Below, piece by piece: positions 14,605 to 36,785 of a stretch of DNA of 40,313 nucleotides. The translations under genes were made by a program, and so were the position numbers. The DNA comes from Clostridiales bacterium. Lineage in GTDB: Bacteria > Bacillota > Clostridia > Lachnospirales > Lachnospiraceae. The notes under the pieces were generated by a model. It was not told where the DNA came from, made no database searches, and saw only the letters and a program-made list of their open reading frames with translations. Each line of letters opens with the position of its first letter. Position 1 is the first letter of the stretch. The stretch is taken from positions 1 to 40,313 of the forward strand of contig DUNS01000117.1 of the NCBI GenBank assembly GCA_012839235.1, given 5' to 3'.

Positions 14605-14638
14605 TTAATAATATATCGAAATGATAGGAGATAAAATT

Positions 14639-15571: not shown

Positions 15572-15585
15572 TATAGGGAGACAGG

Positions 15586-15640
15586 GTGAAGAAGCCTACC
15601 TTCACACAGGAAGAACTTCGAAGCACCCACAGTGGTGCTT
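15586..15640 (+). promoter_or_regulatory. Hairpin pair between manA and the epimerase gene
   Basis: GTGAAG (15586-15591)/CTTCAC (15600-15605), and AAGCACC (15621-15627)/GGTGCTT (15634-15640) around CACAGT. No clear T-run follows, so these look more like mRNA processing, stability or read-through control elements than a terminator. The GAAAGG start motif of the epimerase follows at 15667. Confidence 0.35.
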
Positions 15641-15684
15641 ACCCCTTGTTCACCTAGGTTTATTGAGAAAGGAATAGTAATGAT

Positions 15685-16860: not shown

Positions 16861-16927
16861 AATAGATAGTACATACAAATACTATGGGCAGGGTTAGATG
16901 ACAATCAGAGATTTTAATCTAGAAAGC

Positions 16928-16979
16928 TTGCAGGCTAATGTGAATAAAATTTACACAAATGAAAGGTTTGGTGGCGAAT
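16928..16979 (+). promoter_or_regulatory. GH130 leader with TTGCAGGC...GAAAGG motif
   Basis: CTTGCAGGCTAATG (from 16928), then TTTACACAAAT and GAAAGG (16961-16966) before the start. The arrangement aligns with the GH26 leader (32857-32907): after TTGCAGGC, the spacing to GAAAGG is 25-26 nt in both. It may be a shared leader element. The rest of the 119-nt gap shows nothing clear. Confidence 0.35.
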
Positions 16980-18152
16980 ATGCATCCTAATTATTATGTA
17001 GAACTTGATAAATATGAAAGACTGATTAATAGAAAGAACGAAAAAAGTAAAGCTTATAATGGTATGTATGATAGATATATGTACCCTGTATTAACTAATG
17101 AACATGCACCTATTTTCTGGAGATATGACCTTGATGAAAAGACTAATCCATATTTTATGGAAAGACTAGGAATTAATGCTGTATTTAATTCCGGTGCTAT
17201 AGAATTAGATGGTAAGTATTATCTTGTTGCCCGTGTAGAAGGTCATGATCGTAAATCCTTCTTTGCTGTTGCTGAAAGTGAAAGTCCTATTGATGGATTT
17301 GAGTTCTGGGATTATCCAGTGGAGCTTCCTGATACCCACAAAGAGGAGGCTAATGTCTATGATATGAGATTGACTAAGCATGAGGATGGATATATCTACG
17401 GAGTGTTTTGCTCTGAAAGTAAGGATCCAAGCAATCCTGATTTGTCTGCAGCAGTTGCAGAGGCTGGGATAGTAAGAACAAAAGATTTAAAAACCTGGGA
17501 GAGACTTAATAATCTTGTGACTTTAAATTCACCTCAGCAGAGAAATGTTGTTCTTCATCCTGAGTTTGTTGATGGTCAGTATATGTTTTACACAAGACCT
17601 ATGGATAGCTTTATCGATACAGGTTCCGGTGGAGGCATAGGTGTGGGCTTCTGCTCGGATATAACTAATGCTGTTATCAAGGAAGAGATTATTACAAGTA
17701 AAAGAAAATACCATACAATAACAGAAGCAAAGAATGGTGCTGGAGCGGTTCCAATAAAGACGGAAAAGGGTTGGATTCATATCGCTCATGGAGTTCGTAA
17801 CACTGCAGCAGGACTTCGCTATGTTATATATGTATTTGCAACTGATCTTAATGATCCTACTAAAGTAATCGCAGAGCCCTCTGGATATTACATTGCACCT
17901 ATGGGTGAGGAGCGGGTAGGAGATGTATCTAATGTTGTTTTCACCAATGGTGCAATCGTAACAGATAGTAAGGATGTATATATATATTACGCATCTTCTG
18001 ATACTCGTTTACATGTTGCGGCTACTACCCTTGATAAGCTTATAGACTATACTTTTAATACACCTTCTGATCCACTTCGTTCTGTGGATTGCGTAAAACA
18101 AAGATCAGAGTTAATTAAAAAGAACCTTAATATTATTGGGGAAAATAGGTGA
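16980..18152 (+). CDS. GH130 (subfamily 1-type) 4-O-beta-mannosylglucose phosphorylase
   Basis: Predicted to phosphorolyse mannosyl-beta-1,4-glucose to mannose 1-phosphate and glucose. At 390 aa with a long N-terminal segment ([16 protein letters not shown]), it resembles GH130_1 mannosylglucose phosphorylases rather than the shorter GH130_2 type. Five-bladed propeller segments include [35 protein letters not shown] with Asp128 at the expected general-acid position, and [21 protein letters not shown]. The start was put at ATG 16980, 13 nt after GAAAGG; a GTG at 16971 or the ATG at 16959 (over the ribosome binding site) are alternatives. It directly follows its epimerase partner. Confidence 0.9.
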
Positions 18153-18215
18153 TATTTGTTGTGCAAAATATAGGGCATAAATAGTCAGATTTTACGAATT
18201 ATTTTTAAATGGCTC

Positions 18216-18244
18216 TTGAAAAACCCGTAATCTTGTAGTAAACT
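18216..18244 (+). promoter_or_regulatory. Candidate sigma-A promoter for the lacI-type regulator
   Basis: TTGAAA (18216-18221), 17-nt spacer, TAAACT (18239-18244), about 105 nt before the regulator's start. Confidence 0.5.
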
Positions 18245-18250
18245 TCAATT

Positions 18251-18277
18251 GTGCATACAATTGCATTGTGAGTGCAT
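18251..18277. promoter_or_regulatory. Paired GTGCAT sites downstream of the lacI promoter
   Basis: GTGCAT at 18251-18256 and 18272-18277, 21 nt apart (two helical turns), flanking the palindrome ACAATTGCATTGT (18258-18270). The reverse complement ATGCAC recurs at 19557, 19688 and 19722. This is a plausible autoregulatory site. Confidence 0.35.
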
Positions 18278-18348
18278 AGCCTAATATTATATTAAAAGCC
18301 TATACTAGAAAGCAGGTATAAGCCATGGGTGAGAGGGAGAATACTATA

Positions 18349-19389
18349 ATGAAAAAAGTTACCATTCAGGATATTGCCAAGAAGCTTAACTTGTCAAGAA
18401 ACACAGTAGCAAAGGCGCTTAATAACAGTGATACTGTGTCTTATGAGACAAGATTTTTGGTAATTGAAACCGCTTATGAAATGGGGTATTCCAAGCTATC
18501 CCCAGTAGTACTTAATGAATTTAAAGTTCGCAATAAGATAGATGAAACGAAATCTATTGTTGTTCTGACGAGAAGAGAGATATCTTTCTTCTGGAATAGC
18601 GTAATTATGGGTATATCAGATGAGCTTAACAAGTATGGATGCAAGCTGCAGTTTAATTTTATCAGCGAACAGGATGAGAAGAATTTAGTGCTTCCAATAG
18701 ACTTTAAAGAAGAAGTAAGTGGTGTAATTATACTGAGTATTTTTTCAGATGATTATGTTTCTCTAATAGTCAAACAGAATGTACCTGTAGTATTTCTTGA
18801 TGGTCCAGTTGAGCTGGGGAATACATCTAAACTCGGTGATATAGTAATTTGTGAAGGAAGAAACAGTATTCAGACCATAACTTTTGATCTTATCTCCAAG
18901 GGTCTAACTAAGATCGGTTTTATTGGAGATGCTACTTACAGTAAGACCATTAATGATCGTTATGAAGGATATATATCTGCACTGAATAAAGCAGGTATTA
19001 GGCCTGATGCTTCAATTATAGCTAATTATCATACGACCCATAAGTTTTATAAGAAGGAAGAAGTAGAAGCGGCAATAGATAAGTTCCCCTACATGCCAGA
19101 GGCAATTGTCTGTGCCAATGATGATATCGCTTTATTTACCATTCGACATCTACGTAGCAAAGGTTTATCGGTTCCTGATGATGTGGCAGTAACTGGCTAT
19201 GATAATGTTGAAATTATGTCCCAGGCAGAGCCTATGCTTACGACCGTTAAGGTTGGTAACCAGAGGTTAGGTAGAAGATTAGTGCAGAAGTTGATGTGGC
19301 GGTTGAAAAATCTCACATTTCCAAAGGAAGTATTATATATTAATTCTGAAGTAATATTTCGTGAATCTTCAGACAAGCGAATAGAGTAA
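18349..19389 (+). CDS. LacI/GalR-family transcriptional regulator
   Basis: A 346-aa repressor-type regulator. The N-terminal HTH (MKKVTIQDIAKKLNLSRNTVAKALNN style, residues 1-50) is followed by a periplasmic-binding-like effector domain with VVFLDGPVE, GFIGDATYSKTINDRYEGY, AIVCANDDIALFTIRHL and VPDDVAVTGYDNVEIM. The ATG at 18349 is chosen because the HTH begins there; an in-frame ATG at 18325 preceded by AGAAAGCAGG is also possible and would add eight residues. It lies between the two halves of the mannan island and probably controls them in response to a manno-sugar, which is inference from position. Confidence 0.92.
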   Translation: MKKVTIQDIAKKLNLSRNTVAKALNNSDTVSYETRFLVIETAYEMGYSKLSPVVLNEFKVRNKIDETKSIVVLTRREISFFWNSVIMGISDELNKYGCKLQFNFISEQDEKNLVLPIDFKEEVSGVIILSIFSDDYVSLIVKQNVPVVFLDGPVELGNTSKLGDIVICEGRNSIQTITFDLISKGLTKIGFIGDATYSKTINDRYEGYISALNKAGIRPDASIIANYHTTHKFYKKEEVEAAIDKFPYMPEAIVCANDDIALFTIRHLRSKGLSVPDDVAVTGYDNVEIMSQAEPMLTTVKVGNQRLGRRLVQKLMWRLKNLTFPKEVLYINSEVIFRESSDKRIE

Positions 19390-22716: not shown

Positions 22717-23646
22717 ATGAAGAGGATGCCAAACAAAGTGACAAATAACAAGGAATGGACATTGGCTAACCGAATAAAAAGAAGCAAAGCATCTTATATC
22801 ATGATGGCTCCATATCTAATTCTTTTCTTCTTTTTTACAGTGTTACCAGTAGGAATTTCTGTATTCTTAAGCTTTACAAACTTTAATGTATTAGAGCCCC
22901 CTCAGTTTACTGGATGGGCTAACTATATAAGATTATTTCTTGATGATGATATATTTAAAATTGCCTTAAAGAACACCTTGATATTCGCAGTGATTACTGG
23001 ACCAATTAGTTATATGATGTGTCTTATATTTGCATGGATAATCAATGAGTTTAGTGGGAAGGTAAGAGCTTTTTTGACCTTAATATTTTATGTACCTTCT
23101 ATATCAGGTAATGCCTATGTTATCTGGAACCTGATATTAAAGGGAGACCGATATGGTATCCTTAATGGTTTGCTATTAGATTGGGGCTTCATTAACACAC
23201 CAATAGTTTGGATGAAGACAGAGAAGTATGTAATGTTATTTCTGATAATTGTTCAGCTATGGCTTAGTCTTGGTACGGGATTTCTTACATTTATAGCTGG
23301 TCTTCAGACAGTGGATAAATCCTTGTATGAAGCTGGTGCAGTGGATGGAATAAAAAACCGTTGGCAGGAGCTTTGGTATATAACCCTGCCTGCAATGAAG
23401 CCACAGTTACTATTTGGAGCAGTTATGCAGATAACCCAGTCCTTTAGTATAGCAGATGTATCAATTCAACTAGCAGGTAACCCTAGTGTTAATTACTCAG
23501 GAACTACTATAGTCACCCACCTTATGGATTTTGGTTCCATTAGATATGAAATGGGCTATGCCTCAGCCATAGCAACAATCCTATTTTTATTAATGGTAGG
23601 ATCTAATGCTCTGGTTCAGAAAGTTCTTAGAAAGGTAGGTAAGTAG
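22717..23646 (+). CDS. Carbohydrate ABC transporter permease 1A (MalF/UgpA type)
   Basis: A sugar permease of 309 aa with six predicted helices, the first at YIMMAPYLILFFFFTVLPVGISVFL. The cytoplasmic EAA loop YEAGAVDGIKNRWQELWYITLPAMKP is intact, showing that it couples to an ATPase, which is not encoded in the window. GGAGAG precedes the ATG. The second permease starts 1 nt after its stop, so the two form a heterodimer by context. Confidence 0.92.
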   Translation: MKRMPNKVTNNKEWTLANRIKRSKASYIMMAPYLILFFFFTVLPVGISVFLSFTNFNVLEPPQFTGWANYIRLFLDDDIFKIALKNTLIFAVITGPISYMMCLIFAWIINEFSGKVRAFLTLIFYVPSISGNAYVIWNLILKGDRYGILNGLLLDWGFINTPIVWMKTEKYVMLFLIIVQLWLSLGTGFLTFIAGLQTVDKSLYEAGAVDGIKNRWQELWYITLPAMKPQLLFGAVMQITQSFSIADVSIQLAGNPSVNYSGTTIVTHLMDFGSIRYEMGYASAIATILFLLMVGSNALVQKVLRKVGK

Positions 23647-23647
23647 G

Positions 23648-24538
23648 ATGGCAAGAGATTACATGAAACCCAGAGGGCATATCTTTCGAAGAAAAAAGAA
23701 ACAGCTTAATAGGTCAATGGCTGGAAACTTAAGCTTATTTATATTCATGGGTATCTGTGGTGTTTTTATGGCTCTTCCCTTGGTACTTATAGTAAGTAAT
23801 GCCTTTAAACCCTTAGATGAGTTGTTTAGATATCCACCTATGCTATTTCCTAGGAACCCAAGATTAGATAACTTTTCAGATTTACTGGTTTTGATGAGTA
23901 ATTCCTGGGTACCTTTTTCTAGATACATAATTAATACGTTAATAATAGTAGGGGGTGGAACGGTTGGCCATGTGGTGGTTGCTTCCCTTGCAGCCTATCC
24001 CTTAGCAAAGCATGATTTCCCTGGAAAGAATATGATCTTTAGGATGGTTGTACTTTCCCTTATGTTTAGCTGGCAGGTAACCCAGATACCAAACTATCTA
24101 ATAATATCAAAGCTTAAAATAAACAATACATACCTAGCCCTAATACTTCCTGCATTTGCCTTTGGACTTGGGCTATATCTAATGAAGCAATTCATGGAGC
24201 AGATACCTAACTCCTTAATAGAATCAGCTAGGCTGGATGGTGCTAGTGAATACAAGATTTACTGGTCCATAATAATGCCTAATGTAAAGCCTGCCTGGTT
24301 AACCTTGGCAGTGTTACAGTTTCAACAGATGTGGGGTAATACCGGTAGCCAGTACCTAAGAAGTGAAGAGCTAAAGCCTTTGCAGTTTGCCCTACAACAG
24401 ATAGTTAACGGTGGACCTGCAAGGCAGGGAGCGGCAGCAGTAGTAACCCTATTAATAGCAGCTGTACCGGCAATATTTTTTATAGTGTGTCAAAGCAGTA
24501 TTATAGAAACCATGACAACATCAGGAATGAAGGAATAG
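23648..24538 (+). CDS. Carbohydrate ABC transporter permease 1B (MalG/UgpE type)
   Basis: Partner permease (296 aa). A basic N-terminal tail (RGHIFRRKKKQLNR) precedes six helices; the EAA loop IESARLDGASEYKIYWSIIMPNVKP is intact. It starts one base after the previous stop. With the upstream binding protein it forms the first of two importers in this operon. Confidence 0.92.
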   Translation: MARDYMKPRGHIFRRKKKQLNRSMAGNLSLFIFMGICGVFMALPLVLIVSNAFKPLDELFRYPPMLFPRNPRLDNFSDLLVLMSNSWVPFSRYIINTLIIVGGGTVGHVVVASLAAYPLAKHDFPGKNMIFRMVVLSLMFSWQVTQIPNYLIISKLKINNTYLALILPAFAFGLGLYLMKQFMEQIPNSLIESARLDGASEYKIYWSIIMPNVKPAWLTLAVLQFQQMWGNTGSQYLRSEELKPLQFALQQIVNGGPARQGAAAVVTLLIAAVPAIFFIVCQSSIIETMTTSGMKE

Positions 24539-24555
24539 ACCTAAGGAGGAAAAGT

Positions 24556-26013
24556 ATGAAAAGAAATAGAATATGGCTTATCCCAATAATCCTTCTGATG
24601 TTATGTATTAATGTGGAGACAGCTATAGCTCATGCCAACGTTCCTTATCACACCTATAACTATGATTATTGGGAAGATATATACTATACACCAGCAGCAT
24701 ATGTACCAAATGGAAATATCTCTGGGACAAAGATTGATATTGGTATCCTAAACTCTCCCCAGGATATTTTTGTTGGTGAGGATGAAAGGGTATATATAGC
24801 TGATACAGGAAACAACAGAATAGTTGTACTTGATAAGAACATGAAGCTAGAAAGGATTATAGATAGCTTTGATAATGAAGGAAGCCTAGATACCTTTAAA
24901 GCTCCTTCAGGGATCTACGTAACAGAGAGGAATGAGCTGTATATAGCAGATACGGATAATCTAAGGGTAATAGCCCTTAATGAGGATGGTTCATTACTAA
25001 AGATTATAAGTAATCCAAAATCAGAGGTATTGGCTAATGATTTTATATTCGCACCCCTTAAGATTACAGTGGATTATGCAGATAGGGCCTATATAATAGC
25101 TAAGAACATGTTTCAAGGAATTATGGCATTTGATGAAAATGGGGAGTTCACAGGTTTTACAGGAACAATCAATGTTACCATTACAGCCTATGAGAAGATC
25201 TGGAGAAAGCTTTCTACAAAGGCCCAGAGGGAAAGACAGATACAGTTTATACCTACTGAATTTACAGGAGTTGATATATCCCCAGATGGATTTGTATATG
25301 CAACCAATATTGATGGTGGAGGAGAACAATCCATAAGAAGACTTAATCCTAAGGGACAGGACGTTATAAAAAAAGGAAGGGGAGGCCTAAGTGGAGACCT
25401 AACCTGGAGGCTGGCAGGACATTACTCAGGAGCTTCAAGAATAGTTGATATAGTATATAGAGACAATGGAATCTATTCCGTAGTTGATAAAACCAGGGGT
25501 CGTATCTTTACATATGACCATGAAGGAAACCTACTATATATCTTTGGAGGAATGGGAAGCCAGGAGGGAACATTCAAAAATCCTGTAGCAATAGAAGAAA
25601 AGGGAGAAGAAATATTGGTCCTTGATTCCTACCGTGGGGAAATTCTAAGATTTTTGCCAACTCAATATGGAAGATTAATTAACGAGGCAGTATCCCTAAG
25701 ATTTGATGGAGATGAAGCCTCAGCAGTAAATGTATGGAAACAGGTTTTGGAGCTGGATTCAAACTTTGAATTAGCTTATGTAGGGATAGGTAAGTCCTAT
25801 CTTGCAGCAGGGGATAATAAAAAAGCTATGGAGTATCTAAAACTTGGAATGGACAGGGAATACTATTCCATAGCATACAAGAGATATAGAGATGATATCT
25901 TAAAGGATAATCTAAGCTATATACTTACAGGAGCCATGGTATTAATTGTGGTACTATCCCTTAGATCAGTAATTAATAAGAAAATGGGGAGGAGAGTAGT
26001 AGAAGATGAGTAA
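24556..26013 (+). CDS. Exported NHL-propeller / TPR / C-terminal TM protein
   Basis: A 485-aa protein with an N-terminal signal or anchor helix (WLIPIILLMLCINVETAIA), then NHL-type propeller repeats (LNSPQDIFVGEDERVYIADTGNNRIVVLD; FKAPSGIYVTERNELYIADTDNLRV; FKNPVAIEEKGEEILVLDSYRGEILRF), a TPR-like pair at about 395-440 (AVNVWKQVLELDSNFELAYVGIG; YLAAGDNKKAMEYLKLGM), and a C-terminal helix YILTGAMVLIVVLSL. Most of it should be extracellular, tethered at the C-terminus. The start is ATG 24556 with AAGGAGGA before it. It overlaps the next gene by 8 nt. The role is unknown; it may be a scaffold for the transport complex. Confidence 0.8.
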   Translation: MKRNRIWLIPIILLMLCINVETAIAHANVPYHTYNYDYWEDIYYTPAAYVPNGNISGTKIDIGILNSPQDIFVGEDERVYIADTGNNRIVVLDKNMKLERIIDSFDNEGSLDTFKAPSGIYVTERNELYIADTDNLRVIALNEDGSLLKIISNPKSEVLANDFIFAPLKITVDYADRAYIIAKNMFQGIMAFDENGEFTGFTGTINVTITAYEKIWRKLSTKAQRERQIQFIPTEFTGVDISPDGFVYATNIDGGGEQSIRRLNPKGQDVIKKGRGGLSGDLTWRLAGHYSGASRIVDIVYRDNGIYSVVDKTRGRIFTYDHEGNLLYIFGGMGSQEGTFKNPVAIEEKGEEILVLDSYRGEILRFLPTQYGRLINEAVSLRFDGDEASAVNVWKQVLELDSNFELAYVGIGKSYLAAGDNKKAMEYLKLGMDREYYSIAYKRYRDDILKDNLSYILTGAMVLIVVLSLRSVINKKMGRRVVEDE

Positions 26014-26629
26014 GAAAGAAAAACTATTATATCCCTTTTATGTTATTTCTCATCCCTTTGATGGTTTCTATGAGGTAAGACATAGAGGAAAGGGGAGCGT
26101 TTCTCTTGCCCTTTTATTAATATTTTTATTTGGTTTGTCATTTTCATTAAACAGAAGATATGCTGGATTTGTAGTAAATCTAATTAATCCAAGACATGTA
26201 GATAGCCGAGCAGAGATAATAGGTATATTTTTGGCAGTAATCCTATTTGCAACAGCTAATTGGTCAATAACCTGTTTGATGGAAGGCGAAGGAAGATTTA
26301 AGGATATAATCACAGTGATTGGATACTCTATGCTGCCCATGGTTATAGTCTTTGTTCCAGCTACATTTATTTCAAGATTTATAGCTTCTGATGAAGAGAG
26401 TATCTATTACTTAATAATAAGTCTATCAATTATATATTTTGTTATTTTATTACTAATCGGAATTATGGTAATCCATAATTTTGGATTTGGAAAGACACTG
26501 GGGACTTTACTATTAACATTTGTAGCCTTATTGCTTATTATTTTTATTATTTTGCTCTTGTTATCTCTGATTAATCAGGTTTGGTTATTCCTACAAAGTG
26601 TTTATACAGAGCTTATTATGAGAGGATAA
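26006..26629 (+). CDS. Yip1-like polytopic membrane protein
   Basis: 207 aa, with about five hydrophobic helices and a short cytoplasmic N-terminus, LLYPFYVISHPFDGFYEVRHRGKGS, which is typical of bacterial Yip1-domain proteins. The function of bacterial members is not established. Its ATG overlaps the end of the NHL gene by 8 nt and the DUF5696-like gene follows after 12 nt, so the three proteins are probably made together. A membrane hub for the flanking transporter subunits is inference. Confidence 0.7.
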   Translation: MSKKEKLLYPFYVISHPFDGFYEVRHRGKGSVSLALLLIFLFGLSFSLNRRYAGFVVNLINPRHVDSRAEIIGIFLAVILFATANWSITCLMEGEGRFKDIITVIGYSMLPMVIVFVPATFISRFIASDEESIYYLIISLSIIYFVILLLIGIMVIHNFGFGKTLGTLLLTFVALLLIIFIILLLLSLINQVWLFLQSVYTELIMRG

Positions 26630-26641
26630 GGAGGGGACTTT

Positions 26642-29224
26642 GTGAAAAAGACAAAAAATATAAAGCTGATAATTATTTTAACAATTGTCCTTATACTGGC
26701 TGGCTACGGAACGTATATCTGCCTCCATTATTTCTTCTATAAAGGCTATGAAAAATATCTGACACATTATACATATGAGACAGGGACAGAATTTACCGGA
26801 CTTAGTGATGGGGACCCACAGGTTCCAGGGATGGTATTAGGAGCAGAAAATGATAATCTAAAGCTTTATACTAATCTAAAAACCACAGAAATAGCAGTAT
26901 ATGATAAGAGGACAGGAGAAATTACATATTCCAATCCAGTAGATAGAAAGGATGACCCCATAGCCTCAGGTAGAAATATGACTGCTCTTAACTCACAGTT
27001 TATGATTTCCTACTATGACTTAAGTATGACCCAGGTAACTATGTATAACTATGAATATAGTGTGGAAAGAGAGCAATTTGAGATAGAGGCCTTAGAGGAT
27101 GGGATACGTTATACATACCTATTAGGTAACCTAGATAGTCCAACAGGCCTTGTTCCTCCCTATATATTAGAGGAAAGATTACAAGAGAAGATCTTAGATC
27201 AGCTATCTGAACGAGAAGCTAGAACCTTTAGAAATAGCTATCTTCCTTCTAAGGATCTTGAAGGATTTATGGAGCTTACTTCTGGTGCTAAAGCAAGTAA
27301 GGTAGGACTTCAAAAAATGAACAAGATGTTAGATGACATTGGGTATAGTCAAACTGATTTTGATGAGGATGCAAGGCTTGCAGCAGGTGGTGAACTAGTT
27401 GAGAGAACCACATTCAATGTGGTTTTGGAGTATAGACTAAGGGATGATAAATTAGTAGTTAATGTCCCAACGGAAGCAATTACAAGTACCGGAACAGGTA
27501 AGATATACGATATATCATTACTTAACTTTTTTGGAGCCGGAAGCTTAGAAGAGGAAGGCTATATACTGGTTCCCAATGGTTCTGGGTCCCTAATATACTT
27601 TAATAATGGGAAACAAACTGAACGTTACAATCAATACATATATGGAATGGATGAGACACTTCAGTCCTTTACGGTTGTTGAGGATACCCATGAAGCTAGA
27701 ATGCCTATATTCGGAATAAAGAAGGAAAATAGTGCAATATTTGCAGAGATAACTAATGGTGATTCTTTGGCCAATATTATAGCCGAAGTATCCGGTAAGG
27801 TTAACAGCTATAATTATGTATTCCCCTCCTTTAACTTAAGAGGTAGTGAAAAGGTATCTATGTTTGGGGCAGAGGGGGTATCAGCGGACCTTCCTACAGC
27901 TGAAAAGGAAATATATAAATTAGATATATCAATAGAATACTCATTCCTAACTAAGGAAAATGCTAGTTATTCAGGTATGGCTAATTACTATAGAGATGAA
28001 CTAATAAGCCGTGGAGTCCTAGAAGCCAAAAAAGATAGGGGGAATGTTCCTTTTTACCTAGATATTGTAGGAGGAGTAAAACGTCAGCAAAGTATCTTGG
28101 GAGTTCCTTACCTTACAGTTTATCCTATGACTACCTTTGAAGAAGCTGGAGTAATCGTAGATGCTCTTAGTGACAAGGGTATAGATAATATTAAGATGAA
28201 TTATCTAGGGTGGTTCAACGGTGGTTATTATCATGATGTAGCTAAGGATATAAAGATAGATAGAAAGATGGGAGGTAAAAAGGATTGGAATAAGCTTTAT
28301 GAGAAGCTAACAGCTAATGGTTCTAAGCTTTTTGGTGATGTATCTATTCAAAGAATATCCTTTGAATCAGACCATTATAATTATCGAATGGAAAATGCCA
28401 GATATTATTCCGGCTTTGTAGTAAGCTTTGGGCGAGTAAACCCAGTTACCATGAGACAAACAGGGGGGATGGGATATATGGAAACCAACTTTAATGTCCT
28501 TTCGCCTAAATTCCTAGATCGACATGTAAGACAGTTTTTGAATGAAATCAAAAGGATTAACATATCTGGAGTGACCTTTAGGGATATGGGAGAGTTACTT
28601 ACTTCTGATAAGAGAAGAACAAATGTAATTAATCGTCAGGAATCCAAACAGATAGTCATGGGACAGTTGGAATTAATGGAGGAAGCCATTGGTGATATGA
28701 TGTTTGATGGTGGTAATTCCTATTCATGGGGATATGCAAGTGACTTAATCAATATTCCTGGGGGACATAATCCTTACTATATAGTTGATGAGGAAGTACC
28801 GTTTTACCAGATGGTCATTAATGGATATATAGATTATGCCTCCAGCTCAATCAATCTAAGTGATAGCTACCATAAGCAGGAGATAATTCTAAGAATGATT
28901 GAATATGGATCCGCTCCTCATTTTACATTTTCATATGCTGATTCAAGTGAGATAAAATATACAGGGCTTAACAGCTTATATTCCACACAATATGAAACCT
29001 GGCTAGATGAGGCTTTGGAAATATACCAGGCAACCAACAAGGCCCTTTCCCATGTTATGGGTAGTACAATGATAGATCACAATATTATTGATGATGGTAT
29101 AAAGAAGATAACCTATGATAATGGAGTAACCATATATGTCAATGTGACAAAAAACAGTTTTCATGTAGGGGATATTACAATACCTCCTATGGATTACCTG
29201 GTAGAGGGGGTTGCTAATGAATAA
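26642..29224 (+). CDS. Large membrane-anchored DUF5696-like protein, possible glycoside hydrolase fold
   Basis: 860 aa, GTG start after AGGAGGGG. One N-terminal TM helix (about 6-28), then a beta-rich extracellular half (about 45-460) and a second half from about 467 (DIVGGVKRQQSILGVPYLTVYP; DNIKMNYLGWFNGGYYHDVA; ISGVTFRDMGELL; HFTFSYADSSEIKY) ending in a beta strand-rich tail (NGVTIYVNVTKN). I recognise it as the DUF5696 type seen near sugar transporters. The layout (beta-sandwich, putative TIM barrel, C-terminal beta domain) recalls clan-type glycosidases, but no catalytic pair can be named. It overlaps the next permease by 8 nt. Confidence 0.65.
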   Translation: MKKTKNIKLIIILTIVLILAGYGTYICLHYFFYKGYEKYLTHYTYETGTEFTGLSDGDPQVPGMVLGAENDNLKLYTNLKTTEIAVYDKRTGEITYSNPVDRKDDPIASGRNMTALNSQFMISYYDLSMTQVTMYNYEYSVEREQFEIEALEDGIRYTYLLGNLDSPTGLVPPYILEERLQEKILDQLSEREARTFRNSYLPSKDLEGFMELTSGAKASKVGLQKMNKMLDDIGYSQTDFDEDARLAAGGELVERTTFNVVLEYRLRDDKLVVNVPTEAITSTGTGKIYDISLLNFFGAGSLEEEGYILVPNGSGSLIYFNNGKQTERYNQYIYGMDETLQSFTVVEDTHEARMPIFGIKKENSAIFAEITNGDSLANIIAEVSGKVNSYNYVFPSFNLRGSEKVSMFGAEGVSADLPTAEKEIYKLDISIEYSFLTKENASYSGMANYYRDELISRGVLEAKKDRGNVPFYLDIVGGVKRQQSILGVPYLTVYPMTTFEEAGVIVDALSDKGIDNIKMNYLGWFNGGYYHDVAKDIKIDRKMGGKKDWNKLYEKLTANGSKLFGDVSIQRISFESDHYNYRMENARYYSGFVVSFGRVNPVTMRQTGGMGYMETNFNVLSPKFLDRHVRQFLNEIKRINISGVTFRDMGELLTSDKRRTNVINRQESKQIVMGQLELMEEAIGDMMFDGGNSYSWGYASDLINIPGGHNPYYIVDEEVPFYQMVINGYIDYASSSINLSDSYHKQEIILRMIEYGSAPHFTFSYADSSEIKYTGLNSLYSTQYETWLDEALEIYQATNKALSHVMGSTMIDHNIIDDGIKKITYDNGVTIYVNVTKNSFHVGDITIPPMDYLVEGVANE

Positions 29225-30122
29225 AAAGCGAATGACACTTAGACAAAAAAGAGCAATTACCGGACTTATCTTTATTCTGCCATGGTTTATCGGGTTTGTA
29301 GTTTATTATGTAAGAAGCTTGATACTGACAATTCAATTCTCCCTTAGCAATGTTAAAATAGCTGAAACAGGAGGATATACAACAACCTTTATAGGACTGA
29401 GAAACTTTAAGTTTGCCCTACTTGAGCATGCTACATTTAACCAAATCCTTGTGGACTCATTATGGGAAATCCTTGTGGATGTGCCTTTTATAGTATTCTT
29501 TAGCTTATTTATTGCAATAATGCTTAATTCCAAGTTTAAAGGGAGAGCTTTAGTTAGAGCAATCTTCTTCCTACCGATTTTATTAGGATCTGGTGCGATT
29601 TTAGAAGCACTTCAACTGGCAACTGAGAACATACAAGGAGGAGCTGCTTCTACTGTAGCAGAGTTGGCCACAAGCTCTGGGGTTAATATGGAGTATTTTC
29701 TTAATATTTTTATAGAGATTGGATTACCATTATCCTTTGTTGAATATATTACAGGACTTGTTGCAAGGATTTATGAAATTGTTAGAGCCTCTAGTGTTCA
29801 GATTATTATATTTTTAGCATCTCTACAATCAGTTCCACCCTCCATGTATGAAGTGGCTAAGATCGAAGGAGCAACTACCTATGAAATATTCTGGAAAGTA
29901 ACATTTCCCATGGTATCTCCTTTAATTCTGACTAATGTGGTTTATACAATTATCGACTCATTTATCAATAGTGAGGTGGTTACCACTGCCTATGAGGTGG
30001 CATTTACTCAGTATAATTACGGCTTGTCCAGTGCTATGAGTATGCTAAGTACAATTATTATCAGTTTAATATTAATTATTGTCGGTGCCTTAATAACAAG
30101 AAAAACATTCTACTATAACTAG
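29217..30122 (+). CDS. Carbohydrate ABC transporter permease 2A
   Basis: 301 aa. First helix AITGLIFILPWFIGFVVYYV; EAA loop YEVAKIEGATTYEIFWKVTFPMVSP intact. Compared with permease 1A it has an unusually long extracellular segment around residues 130-190 (ENIQGGAASTVAELATSSG onward). ATG 29217 follows GAGGGGG; an in-frame TTG at 29211 is less likely. It is coupled to the DUF5696-like gene by overlap. Confidence 0.9.
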   Translation: MNKKRMTLRQKRAITGLIFILPWFIGFVVYYVRSLILTIQFSLSNVKIAETGGYTTTFIGLRNFKFALLEHATFNQILVDSLWEILVDVPFIVFFSLFIAIMLNSKFKGRALVRAIFFLPILLGSGAILEALQLATENIQGGAASTVAELATSSGVNMEYFLNIFIEIGLPLSFVEYITGLVARIYEIVRASSVQIIIFLASLQSVPPSMYEVAKIEGATTYEIFWKVTFPMVSPLILTNVVYTIIDSFINSEVVTTAYEVAFTQYNYGLSSAMSMLSTIIISLILIIVGALITRKTFYYN

Positions 30123-30137
30123 AAAGGGGGCAATGCT

Positions 30138-31127
30138 TTGAAGGGTAATGAAATAAGGTTACAAATAAAAAGGCTTAATGAAGATACTGTTCTTCTTAAC
30201 AAGAGATCTAGATTAATTCATAAATTTAAAGCAAGTCTCTTTTCTGTTATTAAATTTATAATACTGCTGGGTATTTCCTACATAATATTAGGACCAATCA
30301 TTAACATAGTGGCCAATTCATTTTATTCGCCATCAGATGTATATAATCCATCGGTATTTTTGTTTCCATTAAATCCAACAATGGATAACTACTCTCTTAC
30401 TTATAGCCGTTTGGAATATTGGAAGACCTTGGGGTGGTCCCTATTATATGTAATAGCCTTAACTGCCATACAGATTATTATAACTTCCATGGCAGGATAT
30501 GGCTTTGCAAGGTTTGACTTTCCCTTTAAGAAGTTATTATTTGCATGTGTAATCATAACAATAGTGTTACCAACCCATACGATTATGCTTCCCTTATATC
30601 AGCACTTTAGAAACTGGGATATCTTTGGGATATTTAGTGCTAGCTTAGGACATAAGGTGAATCTCTTATCTAGTGAAGCACCTATGTTTCTTATGACCTT
30701 ACTAGGAAGTGGACTTAGATCTGGTTTGTTCATATATATCTTCAGGCAGTTTTTTAGAGGATTGCCAAAAGAGATTGAAGAAGCTGCATTTATTGATGGA
30801 GCAGGAATGGCATATACTTATCTTCGAATTATGATGCCTAATGCCATACCCTCAATCGTAACTGTAACAGTATTCTCCGTGGTATGGCAGTATAATGATA
30901 TGTTCTATGTGAACCTATTCTCAATGCCGTCTAGCAAGCATATAACATTTAGATTATCTACAGTTCGGTCAACAATTGAATTCGTAGATCTGGTTAAGGA
31001 TCCAATGATATCTCAGCTGAATGTATACGCAGGAGTTATACTTGTAGTTCTACCTATTCTAATTATCTATCTGTTCTTACAGAAGTATTTTATTGAGGGA
31101 GTAGAGCGAAGCGGTATTGTAGGTTAG
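30138..31127 (+). CDS. Carbohydrate ABC transporter permease 2B
   Basis: 329 aa, beginning with TTG at 30138, 7 nt after AGAAAGGGGG. A long basic N-terminal cytoplasmic tail of about 35 residues precedes six helices; the EAA loop IEEAAFIDGAGMAYTYLRIMMPNAIPS is present. It pairs with permease 2A and probably serves the lipoprotein encoded next, 58 nt downstream. Confidence 0.9.
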   Translation: MKGNEIRLQIKRLNEDTVLLNKRSRLIHKFKASLFSVIKFIILLGISYIILGPIINIVANSFYSPSDVYNPSVFLFPLNPTMDNYSLTYSRLEYWKTLGWSLLYVIALTAIQIIITSMAGYGFARFDFPFKKLLFACVIITIVLPTHTIMLPLYQHFRNWDIFGIFSASLGHKVNLLSSEAPMFLMTLLGSGLRSGLFIYIFRQFFRGLPKEIEEAAFIDGAGMAYTYLRIMMPNAIPSIVTVTVFSVVWQYNDMFYVNLFSMPSSKHITFRLSTVRSTIEFVDLVKDPMISQLNVYAGVILVVLPILIIYLFLQKYFIEGVERSGIVG

Positions 31128-31185: not shown

Positions 31186-32661
31186 ATGAAAATTAAGAAG
31201 TTAGTATCACTTTTAATCATTCTCGCTATGGCATTCTCGTTAGTAGCATGCGGTAATAAAGAGGATGAGAAAGGAAAAGAAACCGAGACAGCACCTGCTA
31301 CATCTACATCAGAGGATACAGATGAGGCTGATGTGACTGATGAGGCTGAGCCAGTTCCCACAGAGGAACCAGTAGCAGACAAATATCCTGCATTTGACTT
31401 TGGTGGAAGAGAAATCAAGGTTGGTATATGGTGGGATTACTACTACACCAGTGAGCATACTGATATTACAGATGATGCCGGCTTATCTAATCCAGAGACA
31501 GCACAGATGAAGCTTGATAATGTTAGAAGAATTGAAGAAAAATATAATGTCAGGATTAAATTTGTTAATCTAGGTTGGGATGGTATTATTGAAAGTATTA
31601 ATACTTCTATAACTGCAGGTACACCAGAGTGTGACATCTATTATACCGACCTTCAATTCGGTATTCCAGCAGCTGTTAATGGGCTGGCTCAAGATTTAAC
31701 AAGTTTTGTTCCTGCAGACTCCGATTTATTTAATGATCAGATTATTATGAAACCTCTAGAAGGTCTTGGGGGAACATACTTCTTTGCTGAGCAGGGATTA
31801 CCTCAGAATGGTATTTACTTAGGTTATAATGCTACTATGCTAGATGAATTGGGACTTGAGGATCCTCGTGCACTTTTTGCTCGTGGAGAGTGGACTTGGG
31901 ATAAATTTGCTGAATATGCGGCAGCAGGTACTCAGGATACTGATAATGATGGAACCGTTGATATATACGGTTATGGTGGTGTGTTTACAGACTTTGTTAA
32001 TGGTCTTATGTTTAATAATGGTGGAGCAATGGCAGCTACTGAAACGGAAAGCTTAAGCTCACAAGAAGTAGTTGAAACCCTTGAGTTTATTGACCGTATC
32101 TATAATCAAGATAAATCAGGTAGACCTTGGAACTGGGATGACTGGAATGACAATTTGCTTGCATGGTCAGACGGTAAAGTTATGTTCTGGACAGGGCAGG
32201 CATGGTTATTAAAGCAAGAGGCAGATGCTGCAATTGCTGAAGGAGCTGAATTACCTTTCGACTACCATGTAGTACCTTATCCTATCGGACCTAGTGGAGA
32301 TGGCACAATTTCAAGTCCGGTATCCGGAAACTGGTTTATAGTACCTGTTGGTGTTCAAGAACCAGAAAAGGTATTCCAAGTATTTGAGGAGTTTTTAAAT
32401 TGGCATCAGGGAGAAACAGAGCTTAGGGATGATCCAACATGGTTTGAAAGCTGCTTTACAACATATGAAGATGTAGAAATTGCATTTGAAACCGGTATGA
32501 ACTTAAGACTTGATATATGGGATAAACTATCTCCTGGATTTGACTTTGGTGCAACTATCTGGGGCCCTATAGTGGTTGATAAGACATCTACAGTTGCTCA
32601 GGCAGTTGAGGCGGCAAAACCAGTACTTCAGGATGCTATTGATGCCTTCTATAGTAAGTAA
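31186..32661 (+). CDS. Sugar-binding lipoprotein, second importer
   Basis: A 491-aa family 1-type extracellular binding protein. Signal peptide with lipobox LVAC and lipid-attachment Cys22, an acidic Thr/Glu/Asp-rich linker (about 25-65), then the binding domain (REIKVGIWWDYYYTSEH; LDNVRRIEEKYNVRIKFVNLG; GYGGVFTDFVNGLMFNNGG). AAGGAGGAG lies before the ATG. It ends the import operon, with a strong terminator following. Unlike the 980-aa protein it has the ordinary single-domain design, so the two may differ in ligand size or decoration. Confidence 0.92.
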   Translation: MKIKKLVSLLIILAMAFSLVACGNKEDEKGKETETAPATSTSEDTDEADVTDEAEPVPTEEPVADKYPAFDFGGREIKVGIWWDYYYTSEHTDITDDAGLSNPETAQMKLDNVRRIEEKYNVRIKFVNLGWDGIIESINTSITAGTPECDIYYTDLQFGIPAAVNGLAQDLTSFVPADSDLFNDQIIMKPLEGLGGTYFFAEQGLPQNGIYLGYNATMLDELGLEDPRALFARGEWTWDKFAEYAAAGTQDTDNDGTVDIYGYGGVFTDFVNGLMFNNGGAMAATETESLSSQEVVETLEFIDRIYNQDKSGRPWNWDDWNDNLLAWSDGKVMFWTGQAWLLKQEADAAIAEGAELPFDYHVVPYPIGPSGDGTISSPVSGNWFIVPVGVQEPEKVFQVFEEFLNWHQGETELRDDPTWFESCFTTYEDVEIAFETGMNLRLDIWDKLSPGFDFGATIWGPIVVDKTSTVAQAVEAAKPVLQDAIDAFYSK

Positions 32662-32833: not shown

Positions 32834-32907
32834 ATATTGTGCCTAAGGCCCAAGGTTTGCAGGCGAATGCGAGCTTTGTACCCACAGAAGAAAGGCATGG
32901 TTATGTA
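32834..32907 (+). promoter_or_regulatory. GH26 leader with GCCCAARGTTTGCAGGC motif
   Basis: It contains TATTGTGCCTAAG (also found at 36735-36747 before the GH113 gene), the 17-mer GCCCAAGGTTTGCAGGC (32848-32864; one difference from 11179-11195) and GAAAGG at 32890, 12 nt before the ATG. No well-spaced promoter was found by eye between the terminator and this leader. Confidence 0.4.
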
Positions 32908-34536
32908 ATGAAAAAGTATATTATCAAAGCATTAATATTATTGGGTTTTTCCATGACATTTTTATATGCTTGTAAACCCAGTGAAGATAATAAAGATAAG
33001 GTTACCCATATTAGCTCCGATGAAACAGGCAATGGCATGGGAGGGGAGACCGATACAGATTTGGATAAAGAGGAAGATAAGGCTGGAACAGATACTGATG
33101 CAGAAGAGTCAGTTAGTTGTCTGGAAGATAATTATGACCCGGGTTTTTCTATAATAATAGAAGCTGAGGAGGCTCAGTTTACCGGTAATGTTAAGGTTGA
33201 AAATAAAAAACATGGATATACAGGATCAGGGTATCTGACAGGAATACAAGAAGATAGTGATATTGTAACATTTACTATTAAAGTACCGGGGACAGGGGCC
33301 TATGATCTGAATTTTAGAAGTGTTGGTAACACTGGTTATAAGGAAAATAATATCTATATTGATGGAGAATATATTGGTATTGCAAAGGTTGATGGCGATG
33401 AATTTACGGATTCTTTTTTGGAAAAGATCTATCTTGAAACAGGAGAACATGAAATCACTATGAAAAAAAGTTGGGGATGGATTTTCCTTGATCACTTAGA
33501 AATAATTGCATCAGGAACAGTGGATAGGTCAATCTATGAAGTTTCTTCAGAGCTTGTTGATCCTAAGGCGTCAGAAAGCGCTAAAAGATTAATGAAATTC
33601 TTAGTTGACTCCTTTGGTAATAAGGTTATATCTGGTCAATATAGCAATGGTGGTTTGAATGGAAAAGAATTTAAAGCAATTTATGATGGAACAGGAAAAT
33701 ATCCAGCAATGCTAGGACTGGATTTTATCGAATACACTCCTTCTAGAGTGGCTTTTGGTTCTAAAGGTAATGATGTTGAACATGCAATTGAATTTGATAA
33801 AGAGGGTGGCATAGTAACATTTGCTTGGCACTGGAATGCTCCAGAACCATACTTGCCTAACAGGCAAGATCAGCCTTGGTGGTCGGGATTTTATACTAGA
33901 GCAACTAATATCGATCTTATGAAGATTATGAATGGTGAAGATGAAGAGGGCTACAATCTCTTGATAAGAGATATTGATGCTATTGCTAAGGAACTTAAGA
34001 TCCTAGAAGCAGCTGATGTTCCTATTTTATGGAGACCTCTTCATGAAGCCAGTGGTGGCTGGTTCTGGTGGGGAGCTTCAGGTCCTGAGCCATATATAGA
34101 GCTTTATAAGCTTTTGTTTGACAGATTGAGTAATCACCATGATATACATAACCTAATTTGGGTGTGGAATGGCCAGGGCAGGGATTGGTATCCAGGAGAT
34201 GAATATGTTGATATAGTGGGAACGGATCTTTACCCAGGAGAAAGGGTATACTCCTCTCAGGCAGCAAGCTTCAATGAATTGCTGGACTGGTTAGATAAAA
34301 GCCGCAAGATAATAGCTCTAACTGAAAATGGATGCATATTTGATCCTGATTTAGCATTTAGAGATAATGCCATCTGGTCATACTTTGGAACCTGGAGTGG
34401 TGAATTTGTAATACTTAATAATACGTATACCTTGTCTGAAAAATATACAGAGACAGATATGCTTATAAAAGCATACACAAGTGACAAGGTTCTAACATTA
34501 GATGAATTACCAAATCTTAAAAGCTATGGTAATTAG
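32908..34536 (+). CDS. Surface lipoprotein GH26 endo-beta-1,4-mannanase with CBM6/35-like module
   Basis: A 542-aa secreted mannanase. Signal peptide with lipobox LYAC and Cys22, an acidic linker, then a beta-sandwich module at about 85-220 (IIEAEEAQFTGNVKVENKKH; YIDGEYIGIAKV; GWIFLDHLEII) of CBM6/35 type, and a GH26 domain from about 221. Acid/base Glu380 lies in WRPLHEASGGWFWWG and nucleophile Glu473 in ALTENG, both intact. The start at ATG 32908 begins the lipoprotein signal; an in-frame GTG at 32839 lies in the leader. It is the only clearly extracellular hydrolase here and would generate the oligosaccharides imported by the upstream transporters. Confidence 0.93.
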   Translation: MKKYIIKALILLGFSMTFLYACKPSEDNKDKVTHISSDETGNGMGGETDTDLDKEEDKAGTDTDAEESVSCLEDNYDPGFSIIIEAEEAQFTGNVKVENKKHGYTGSGYLTGIQEDSDIVTFTIKVPGTGAYDLNFRSVGNTGYKENNIYIDGEYIGIAKVDGDEFTDSFLEKIYLETGEHEITMKKSWGWIFLDHLEIIASGTVDRSIYEVSSELVDPKASESAKRLMKFLVDSFGNKVISGQYSNGGLNGKEFKAIYDGTGKYPAMLGLDFIEYTPSRVAFGSKGNDVEHAIEFDKEGGIVTFAWHWNAPEPYLPNRQDQPWWSGFYTRATNIDLMKIMNGEDEEGYNLLIRDIDAIAKELKILEAADVPILWRPLHEASGGWFWWGASGPEPYIELYKLLFDRLSNHHDIHNLIWVWNGQGRDWYPGDEYVDIVGTDLYPGERVYSSQAASFNELLDWLDKSRKIIALTENGCIFDPDLAFRDNAIWSYFGTWSGEFVILNNTYTLSEKYTETDMLIKAYTSDKVLTLDELPNLKSYGN

Positions 34537-34561
34537 TATAAATACATAAGGAGAGAACAAT

Positions 34562-35581
34562 ATGAGTAAAGTTAAAATTATAGGCAGCAGCCTACCTAAT
34601 ATCCCTTGGCAGGAGAGGCCAGAGGGAGGTGTTGGTCCCGTATGGAGATATTCAGAAAACCCTATTATTAAAAGAAATCCCCTTCCTGGTGTAGCAAGAA
34701 TATTTAATAGTGCTGTTATACCTTATAAGGGAGAGTTCATCGGAGTGTTTAGAGCCGAGCAAACCAATGGAGTTCCCCATCTATATATGGGATATAGCAA
34801 GGATGGAGTGAACTGGACATATGAGCCGGAGAAAATTCCATTTGTTAATGAAGCTGGTGAGCCATTTATGCCTCGCTATGCATATGATCCTCGTCTTATT
34901 GAAATAGAGGGCACTTACTACATAATATGGTGTACAGATTTTTATGGGGCAGCTTTAGGAATGGCTAAAACAAAGGATTTTAAGAAATTTGTTAGAATTG
35001 ATAACCCATTCTTACCATTTAACAGAAATGGAGTTCTCTTCCCAAGAAGGATTAATGGCAATTTTGTTCTTTTATCAAGACCTAGCGATAGTGGGCATAC
35101 ACCATTTGGTGACATATTCGTAAGTGAGAGCCCTGACTTAACCTACTGGGGTAAGCATAGACATGTTATGGCTCGTGGTAGTGAGTGGTGGCAGTCATTA
35201 AAGATTGGTGGAGGCTCTGCTCCTATTGAAACAAGTGAAGGATGGTTAGTAATATATCATGGTGTTACAGGCACATGTAATGGTTATGTATATAGTATGG
35301 GAGCTTGTATCCTAGACATAGACAATCCTTCTATAGTTAAGTATAGAGCTAACAGATTCATCCTTACACCGGAGGAATGGTACGAGGAGAGAGGATTTGT
35401 TGCTAACGTTGTCTTCCCTTGTGCTGCTTTAACTGATGCAGATACAGGAAGAATAGCAATCTACTACGGAGCAGCGGATAGCTATGTGGGAATGGCATTT
35501 ACTACTGTTGATGAGCTTGTAGAATTTGTTAAGGCCAATGATGGGGCAACTGATGATGATAGGAGCATAGGAATTATATAA
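34562..35581 (+). CDS. GH130 (subfamily 2-type) beta-1,4-manno-oligosaccharide phosphorylase
   Basis: Predicted to release mannose 1-phosphate from the non-reducing end of manno-oligosaccharides in the cytoplasm. At 339 aa it has the shorter GH130_2 size. Motifs include ARIFNSAVIPYKGEFIGVFR, RYAYDPRLIEIEGTYYI with Asp109 at the expected proton-donor position, GGGSAPIETSEGWLVIYHGV and IAIYYGAADSYVGMA. It differs from the GH130 at 16980 in length and N-terminus, so the two are complementary and not duplicates. AAGGAGAG precedes the ATG. Its stop overlaps the next gene by one base. Confidence 0.93.
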   Translation: MSKVKIIGSSLPNIPWQERPEGGVGPVWRYSENPIIKRNPLPGVARIFNSAVIPYKGEFIGVFRAEQTNGVPHLYMGYSKDGVNWTYEPEKIPFVNEAGEPFMPRYAYDPRLIEIEGTYYIIWCTDFYGAALGMAKTKDFKKFVRIDNPFLPFNRNGVLFPRRINGNFVLLSRPSDSGHTPFGDIFVSESPDLTYWGKHRHVMARGSEWWQSLKIGGGSAPIETSEGWLVIYHGVTGTCNGYVYSMGACILDIDNPSIVKYRANRFILTPEEWYEERGFVANVVFPCAALTDADTGRIAIYYGAADSYVGMAFTTVDELVEFVKANDGATDDDRSIGII

Positions 35582-36693
35582 TGAAAGCAATGTATGATAA
35601 GGGGATTGTTAATAAGGGTAACCCAGCCAGGATTATAAAGGTCATGAATATGGCACTGGCTGGGCAACCAGTCAAAGTAGGATTTATAGGAGGATCTATA
35701 ACTGCAGGTTCTTTGGCGTCTACTAAGGAAACCTGCTATGCTTATAGGGTTTATTCATGGTGGATTGAGAAATTCCCTTTAAGTGAGGTTTCCTATATTA
35801 ATGCTGGCATTGGAGCTACAACATCTCAGTTTGGAGTGGCTAGAGTCTATCCAGACTTGCTTCAATATAATCCGGATATGGTATTTGCCGAATTCTCTGT
35901 CAATGACAGTGATGATGATAAATTTCAGGAAACCTTTGAAGGGCTAATAAGTTCTATTCTTTCATATGAGACTAGTCCAGCTCTTCTGATGCTTAACAAT
36001 GTAGAATATGATAGTGGCAATAATGCTCAAAGAGTTCACAATGAGGTTGGATTTCATTATGACCTTCCTATAGTAAGTGTAAGGGATAGTATCTATGAGG
36101 AGATTGTCGCTGGCAATCTTGAGATATCAGAGATTACCCCTGACAACCTCCACCCCAATGATTATGGTCATGAGCTTGTAGCAGGGTTAATAATTAATCT
36201 CTTGGAGAAGTTTTATGAAGAAGCTTCTAGTATAACTGATACCAATGTTCATGTTACATATGAGCTTCCTGAAAAACCATTAACCTTCAATAGATATGGT
36301 AAATCTGTCCTTAGAAATAATCTGAATACAGAAGCATGTCTAGAGGGATTTAGCAGGGATTTAGAGATAAAAGAAGAGTGGGATGTGTTTAGGAATGGTT
36401 GGGTAGGCAAGAAAAAGGGAGCAAGGATTTCATTGGAAGTAGAAGCCTCACTCATATCAATTCAATATAGAAAATATGCCAAGCATCCAGCCCCTATAGC
36501 CAAGGTTACTATTGACCAAGAACAGGATAAGGAGATCATCCTAGATGGAAACTTTGATGAAGACTGGGGAGACTGCTTATATTTGCAAGATATAATGGTT
36601 GCGGGAAAGGCTGGATTACACACAGTGGATATAGAGATTATTGAAGAAGTTATAGGAGTGAATTTCTATCTTGCTTCTATCATAACAGCATAA
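35581..36693 (+). CDS. SGNH-hydrolase, probable mannan acetylesterase with C-terminal beta domain
   Basis: 370 aa, no signal peptide, so cytoplasmic. SGNH blocks: GGSIT with nucleophile Ser39, NAGIGAT glycine block, FSVNDS with Asn108, and DNLHP with Asp188 and His191. A second, beta-rich domain fills about 240-370. SGNH followed by a CBM35-like domain is the layout known for CE17 acetylesterases in gut mannan loci, so deacetylation of imported manno-oligosaccharides is the likely role; assignment to CE17 is inference. It is one-base-coupled to the GH130_2 gene, as expected if deacetylation must precede phosphorolysis. Confidence 0.82.
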   Translation: MKAMYDKGIVNKGNPARIIKVMNMALAGQPVKVGFIGGSITAGSLASTKETCYAYRVYSWWIEKFPLSEVSYINAGIGATTSQFGVARVYPDLLQYNPDMVFAEFSVNDSDDDKFQETFEGLISSILSYETSPALLMLNNVEYDSGNNAQRVHNEVGFHYDLPIVSVRDSIYEEIVAGNLEISEITPDNLHPNDYGHELVAGLIINLLEKFYEEASSITDTNVHVTYELPEKPLTFNRYGKSVLRNNLNTEACLEGFSRDLEIKEEWDVFRNGWVGKKKGARISLEVEASLISIQYRKYAKHPAPIAKVTIDQEQDKEIILDGNFDEDWGDCLYLQDIMVAGKAGLHTVDIEIIEEVIGVNFYLASIITA

Positions 36694-36785
36694 ATAAACA
36701 GCAGATATATGGTAGGATCTTGGTTTGATTATGAGTATTGTGCCTAAGCACAGGATAGTAGGATATGTAGGGAGGTATGCTGAAT

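Follow-up and report, generated by a model that had tools for sequence, protein, structure and literature searches.

A 40,313-nt stretch of DNA from a Clostridiales bacterium of the Lachnospiraceae (assembly GCA_012839235.1, contig DUNS01000117.1, positions 1 to 40,313; hereafter the window) carries a cassette of transporter genes in which an NHL-propeller protein, a Yip1-domain membrane protein and a protein of the DUF5696 family lie between two sugar permease pairs, P1A/P1B and P2A/P2B. The first pair is preceded by a large solute-binding protein (SBP), SBPa, and the second is often followed by a conventional one, SBPb. The cassette recurs in genomes that span 12 family labels, in up to about ten copies per genome and beside many glycoside hydrolase (GH) families, and when complete it has two distinct permease pairs. 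We lean, without great confidence, towards the view that it is a modular type I ATP-binding cassette (ABC) importer for plant-polysaccharide fragments, built from a constant and a variable half. The constant half would be SBPa with P1A/P1B; the variable half would be the NHL-TPR-Yip1 protein, the anchored GH129-like DUF5696 protein and P2A/P2B, fed by a locus-specific SBPb.

How widely do these genes travel together? A sequence-only reading of the window had proposed that the NHL, Yip1 and DUF5696 genes belong with paired permeases. DUF5696 was sought in the window's own genome and 60 relatives (61 genomes) and in 299 genomes drawn across the phylum. It scored above the Pfam cut-off in 32 of the 61 (as many as 10 matches in one genome, counting fragments), in 26 of the 299, and in none of 14 control genomes. 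Just four or five candidates were scored in many genomes of the phylum searches; seven DUF5696-rich genomes were re-searched with full scoring, and absences outside those seven rest on the four or five scored candidates in many genomes. One relative, G043, was dropped post hoc from the 32 because its protein, L133, proved to match NagBb, a GH129 enzyme, along its entire length, leaving 31 genomes. Yip1, searched independently in the same 61 genomes, has per-genome counts nearly equal to those of DUF5696 within genus g1, mostly at neighbouring positions.

Neighbourhoods were compared at 100 loci around DUF5696 genes, picked from the longer matches, with open reading frames (ORFs) classified by profiles made from homologues of the window proteins; counts of parts are restricted to loci with sufficient flank, referred to as testable. 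P2A and P2B lie downstream of DUF5696 in 96/96 testable loci, and NHL and Yip1 lie upstream in 92/92. The proposed co-occurrence with permease pairs thus extends beyond the window, and the three genes stay with the permeases instead of being independently dispersed. The full set of SBPa, P1A and P1B is close by in 75 of the 83 loci testable for it. Fusion of NHL and Yip1 into a single protein is frequent (44 ORFs in related loci), and the core intergenic gaps have medians of -11 to 15 nt; two extra loci, which share their contigs with L039 and L034, enter the fusion count and the medians and are excluded from the 100-locus counts.

Individual loci vary on this theme. The parts stand in a different order in L074, L077, L129 and L199. 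L084 (genome G053) lacks SBPa within the stretch and has two P1B genes, of which one adjoins P1A and the other precedes NHL. In two loci from f50 genomes, L102 and L106, six and five SBPb-like genes follow P2B in a row, a pattern that would fit several binding proteins supplying a single permease pair. Single stops interrupt the DUF5696 frames of G011 (L071) and G142 (G142:C81) and the SBPa frame of G002 (L077); these are either decayed copies or assembly errors.

The two permease pairs, which the sequence-only reading did not set apart, are not equivalent: conservation is higher for pair 1 and its SBPa, which are also found as a stand-alone operon. Among the 71 distinct loci in which the seven core parts are all present, pairwise identity averages 0.51 for P1A and 0.48 for P1B, vs 0.36 for both P2A and P2B; the values for SBPa, NHL-Yip1 and DUF5696 are 0.35, 0.32 and 0.27. 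Between same-genome paralogues (63 pairs), P1A/P1B stand at 0.47/0.43 vs 0.32/0.31 for P2A/P2B. Identities correlate among all parts across the 71 loci (Spearman 0.67-0.89), with P2 lowest.

The full SBPa-P1 set is absent from eight of the 83 testable loci, namely L084, where P1A and P1B are present, and seven loci from families f69 and f84. What remains in these families is a short cassette of NHL-Yip1, DUF5696, P2A and P2B, often with SBPb. Fully scored searches and fetched loci revealed a stand-alone SBPa-P1A-P1B operon, free of the other parts, in 6/6 resolved f69/f84 genomes: L178 (G122), L184 (G195), L188 (G100), L191 (G225), L196 (G299) and L197 (G161). The seventh searched genome of these families, G142, is too fragmented to resolve. 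DUF5696 and SBPa genes number ten and four in G122 (seven of the ten cassettes seen short), ten and four in G195 (four cassettes seen short, three outside the count), eight and four in G225 (four seen short, one outside the count) and three and three in G161 (one short). G299 has one DUF5696 gene, in short cassette L195, and one SBPa gene, in the stand-alone operon. The six stand-alone SBPa proteins cluster together in a quick tree (support 91), and several of the six operons have neighbouring ORFs of similar length, which suggests that they occupy the same chromosomal place. In a quick tree of DUF5696, the 21 proteins from short cassettes form one group (support 92) with 11 from SBPa-P1-bearing cassettes. 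The most economical interpretation is a multiplication of the variable half, with one constant half retained for common use. The stronger idea that one constant half replaced all others in f69/f84 was rejected, since most such genomes retain cassettes with their own SBPa-P1.

SBPa had been left out of the unit as originally drawn, which was limited to the permeases and the three proteins between them. It belongs there too, both by its place, together with P1, near DUF5696 in 75 of the 83 loci and by its distribution among genomes. When sought by a profile of its N-terminal region, SBPa was found in 31/31 DUF5696 genomes vs 0/30 others among the relatives, and in 26/26 vs 2/273 in the phylum sample, with Fisher p values (4e-18 and 2e-35) that are to be read with the relatedness of the sampled genomes in mind, since these are not phylogenetically independent. 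With G043 kept among the DUF5696 genomes, the first figure would be 31/32; one of the 26, G163, has a partial match at a contig start.

What kind of protein is SBPa? Pfam places SBP_bac_1 at residues 591-872 and GH115_C exactly at its cut-off. An AlphaFold2 model with a mean predicted local distance difference test (pLDDT) score of 88.5 shows an N-terminal hydrophobic helix, two beta-sandwiches, one of them resembling a carbohydrate-binding module (CBM), long helices, and a domain like maltose-binding protein (MBP) that Foldseek places close to 5ysb and 5ci5. A cycloisomaltooligosaccharide glucanotransferase matches the region of the second sandwich (profile positions 302-401). The GH26-CBM35 protein of the window (32839-34536) is also matched by the SBPa profile, consistent with SBPa having a domain of CBM35 type. 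SBPa is probably not lipid-anchored, as a simple lipobox pattern occurs in just 2/79 proteins, a scarcity that is unusual for a Gram-positive SBP. Several SBPa relatives have possible signal-peptidase sites (16 N-termini viewed).

The DUF5696 protein had been described simply as a large anchored protein, which missed its GH129-like fold. The model (pLDDT 92.2) retrieves GH129 structures first in Foldseek (5opq, 5wzn, 5wzr and others) and GH101 next, with a best E-value of 3.4e-31 and TM-scores, normalised by target, of up to 0.71. A PDB profile search with DUF5696 likewise finds GH129 members, and hhalign aligns it to the GH129 protein L133 over 382 columns (probability 96.8, E 2.8e-10). In fold and in remote sequence homology, DUF5696 thus resembles the GH129/GH101 alpha-N-acetylgalactosaminidases, such as NagBb (5wzn) and ZgGH129 (5opq). 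Unlike them, it lacks conserved catalytic carboxylates, the window protein is anchored by a transmembrane (TM) segment, and permeases adjoin it in 96/96 testable loci. Asp435 and Glu478 of NagBb, positions read from its sequence, we take to be nucleophile and acid/base. The nucleophile corresponds to DUF5696 column 648 by eye or 652 by hhalign, and the acid/base to column 689; acidic residues occupy these columns in 44/79, 17/79 and 32/79 members, respectively. Both the nucleophile and the acid/base column are acidic in just 11/79 members in either register, and only columns 337 and 754 are acidic in at least 85% of the 79. To judge from sequence and model, the family looks like a glycosidase fold turned to binding.

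DUF5696 could instead be catalytically active, a glycosidase anchored in the membrane and trimming oligosaccharides where they enter the transporter. The confidently predicted GH129/GH101 fold and the homology to L133 argue for this, as does the window member, which has Asp at both 648 and 689 and therefore may be enzymatically active. The register is uncertain at 10-14% identity, so catalytic residues may be supplied from elsewhere. Set against this is the rarity of members with both candidate columns acidic, and we consider trimming improbable.

Two further observations concern the family itself. A lipobox pattern lies within the first 45 residues of 22/101 DUF5696 proteins, so some subgroups may be lipid- instead of TM-anchored. 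The GH129 relative of NagBb in G043 (L133:1414-3294) scores 52.8 bits with Pfam DUF5696 (cut-off 25.6) and also exceeds the GH101 cut-off, with DUF6259 and GH129 just under theirs; DUF5696, GH101, DUF6259 and GH129 look like one superfamily at the level of profile scores. Among 11 other weak DUF5696 matches fetched, five were scanned with Pfam, and four proved to be of alpha-amylase type and one DUF6259.

How would such an importer be powered? EAA-like loops are kept in all four permease families among aligned relatives. The features expected of a CUT1-like importer are present, namely MalF/MalG-type pairs with these loops, sugar-type SBPs (SBPa and SBPb) and, in the four genomes tested, a MalK-type ATPase. 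OB_MalK gave one match per genome in 4/4 genomes, outside the cassette, including G122 with its ten DUF5696 genes. A crude ABC ATPase motif scan of the fetched loci and the window found only five of 3277 six-frame ORFs: the two Opp ATPases of the window, which lie away from the cassette, and one ORF each in L067, L099 and L121. The pattern used recovers 4/4 MalK-type control loci; a first, narrower pattern (1/3277) was discarded because it missed both Opp ATPases of the window. We infer that a MalK-type ATPase encoded elsewhere serves the cassette permeases. The lone OB_MalK and the near-absence of ATPases at the loci fit the shared MsmX-type ATPases of Bacillus subtilis. CUT1-type sugar importers of that species are reported to use a shared MsmX-like ATPase (PMC7658222, PMC5730181) and, like the cassette, combine MalF/MalG-type permeases, EAA-like loops and SBPs with no ATPase gene adjoining the permeases. 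Unlike the importers described there, the cassette joins two permease pairs with NHL, Yip1 and DUF5696 proteins, and one pair with its SBP also stands alone.

The likely substrates can be judged from neighbouring enzymes. At each locus that had one (81/100), the closest downstream ORF that was unassigned, on the same strand and at least 270 aa long was selected; together with the GH26 protein of the window, this gave 82 proteins. The best 25 of 84 families matched include GH43 (9 proteins), GH16 (8), GH10, GH26 and GH130 (7 each), and GH42 and GH31 (4 each). Judged from this diversity of predicted families, the cassette is associated with, and accompanies, many polysaccharides. The window locus itself reads as a beta-mannan locus from the Pfam families around it.

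Taken as a modular importer, the cassette would work as follows. The secreted hydrolases of each locus would cleave the polysaccharide, and the chain would be captured by SBPb, by the carbohydrate-binding domains of SBPa and by the groove of the GH-like DUF5696 protein. The propeller-Yip1 protein, with its propeller outward and its Yip1 part in the membrane, as hydropathy predicts, would keep both permease pairs together, and a cell-wide shared MalK-type ATPase encoded elsewhere would power them. In some lineages, one constant half encoded elsewhere would serve several variable halves. The NHL-Yip1 fusion and its fixed place adjoining P2 suggest that this protein is part of the permease assembly. 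We infer the physical complex, joint glycan import, the capture roles, the NHL-Yip1 scaffold role and the action of the constant half in trans from gene order, conservation and predicted structure. A further claim is more tentative, and we would sooner doubt it than rely on it: the cassette may represent a new ABC importer architecture, with the constant pair and its carbohydrate-binding SBP as a docking and translocation core, acting in cis or shared in trans, for many interchangeable glycan-specific modules. In each module, a propeller-Yip1 scaffold and a glycan grip derived from a glycosidase would accompany a second permease pair.

Several points weigh against the modular importer. The physical link between P1 and P2 is its weakest step. 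The NHL-Yip1 and DUF5696 proteins were assigned to the P2 half because of gene linkage in short cassettes, whereas covariation favours the constant half, which they track (Spearman 0.77-0.88) above P2 (0.72-0.75). Cassettes with their own SBPa-P1 also occur in five of the six genomes with stand-alone operons and could serve the short cassettes there; G299 is the sole such genome without them, but it is a draft of 220 contigs. The genome-level association is softened by the relatedness of the genomes, by SBPa in two DUF5696-free genomes (G164 and G214, on contigs of 3.8 and 4.3 kb) and by weaker SBPa N-terminal matches (E 1e-32 to 1e-50) in five f37 genomes, which were left out of the SBPa count.

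The main alternative is that the locus encodes two independent ABC importers under common control, with SBPa-P1A-P1B and SBPb-P2A-P2B taking up different classes of oligosaccharide and NHL-Yip1 and DUF5696 acting as accessory proteins of the second alone. In its favour, both pairs come with EAA-like loops and a candidate SBP of their own, and P2 shows the weakest correlation with the remaining parts; the constant half also occurs by itself, and NHL-Yip1 and DUF5696 stay beside P2 in short cassettes. Two independent importers leave unexplained why SBPa is nearly confined to DUF5696 genomes, even where unlinked, and why a constant half that varies with DUF5696 (Spearman 0.77-0.85) is usually repeated in cassettes whose hydrolases differ; we regard them as unlikely, though a serious contender. 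It is also conceivable that SBPa-P1A-P1B is a sensor or energising partner, sensing sugar through SBPa and gating or powering P2 importers, a role with which its conservation beside differing hydrolase sets and its stand-alone copies would agree. Its EAA-like loops and MBP-like domain are ordinary importer features, and we give this role very little credence.

How does the cassette compare with other systems? The beta-mannan importer of Roseburia intestinalis, RiMnBP/RiMPP1/RiMPP2, is described as one SBP with two permeases, and its locus resembles that of the window in having GH26, GH113, GH130, an epimerase, a LacI regulator and an ABC importer; the passages on it mention no second pair and no NHL, Yip1 or DUF5696 protein, in contrast to the cassette (PMC6385246). 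No mention of DUF5696 was found in the open-access literature searched, and no description of the cassette among the matches listed, subscription journals and preprints being outside the scope of the search. The parts belong to known families, and their arrangement appears new to the literature searched.

Shared-module logic is familiar from group II energy-coupling factor (ECF) vitamin transporters, in which a common module (EcfT with ATPases) serves several substrate-specific modules. The proteins are unrelated, and what the cassette would share is an SBP and its type I permease pair. The SusCD complexes of Bacteroidota capture glycans in a locus-specific manner beside degrading enzymes; the cassette likewise adjoins degrading enzymes, and locus-specific capture is what we propose for it. 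No TonB-dependent porin or SusCD homologue was recognised among the 30 window proteins scanned with Pfam. To our knowledge, uptake of large glycans by Gram-positive fibre degraders is less well understood than in Bacteroidota. If the docking-core claim is true, the cassette would give Gram-positive bacteria their own counterpart of the SusCD strategy for taking up large polysaccharide fragments. If the modular importer is real, growth on several unrelated polysaccharides should suffer together when a single small stand-alone operon is lost. The cassette also places DUF5696 and a bacterial Yip1 family in a context.

The window locus is set out in the table below. The sequence-only reading listed seven same-strand genes with gaps of +1, +17, -8, +12, -8 and +15 nt, and these are reproduced with starts at 24556 for NHL and 29217 for P2A, both ATG; the NHL ORF may instead begin at 24487 (GTG) and P2A at 29211 (TTG). 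ORF order and Pfam families agree that NHL, Yip1 and DUF5696 lie between the permease pairs, the four permeases scoring 32-56 bits with BPD_transp_1. The seven genes stand and the extent does not, as the unit begins one gene earlier, with SBPa at 19763, and often takes in the SBP after P2B. Similarly, the NHL assignment of the NHL/TPR protein is borne out by Pfam (48.8 bits), and its TPR stretch, seen by eye only, is absent from the Pfam results at E<=1e-3.

Table 1. Genes of the window locus and their surroundings, in window coordinates.
Feature	Position	Strand	Evidence and remarks
SBPa, 980 aa	19763..22705	+	N-terminal hydrophobic segment, two beta-sandwich domains, helical region, C-terminal MBP-like domain; first constant-half gene
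P1A, MalF-type permease, constant half	22717..23646	+	Pfam BPD_transp_1; EAA-like loop kept in relatives
P1B, MalG-type permease, constant half	23648..24538	+	Pfam BPD_transp_1; EAA-like loop kept in relatives
NHL propeller, TPR-like stretch (by eye) and C-terminal TM helix; probably exported	24556..26013	+	Pfam NHL 48.8 bits; hydropathy
Yip1-domain polytopic membrane protein	26006..26629	+	Pfam Yip1 53.8 bits; hydropathy
DUF5696 protein, N-terminal TM anchor, GH129/GH101-like fold	26642..29224	+	Pfam PF18952 684.7 bits; model; Foldseek; hhalign
P2A, permease, variable half	29217..30122	+	Pfam BPD_transp_1; EAA-like loop
P2B, permease, variable half	30138..31127	+	Pfam BPD_transp_1; EAA-like loop
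SBPb, conventional SBP with lipobox	31186..32661	+	Pfam SBP_bac_1; frequent but variable companion
Upstream substrate context: phosphomannose isomerase, GlcNAc-2-epimerase-like protein, GH130, LacI regulator	14621..19389	+	Pfam
Downstream substrate context: GH26-CBM35, GH130, GDSL esterase, GH113	32839..37754	+	Pfam

Two observations concern other parts of the window. A pair of chromate-transporter family genes lies directly 5' of the mannose genes of the locus (13417-14552). On the minus strand, a Flavoprotein-family protein is encoded beside a dipicolinate synthase A-like protein (5349-6821), as expected in a spore former.

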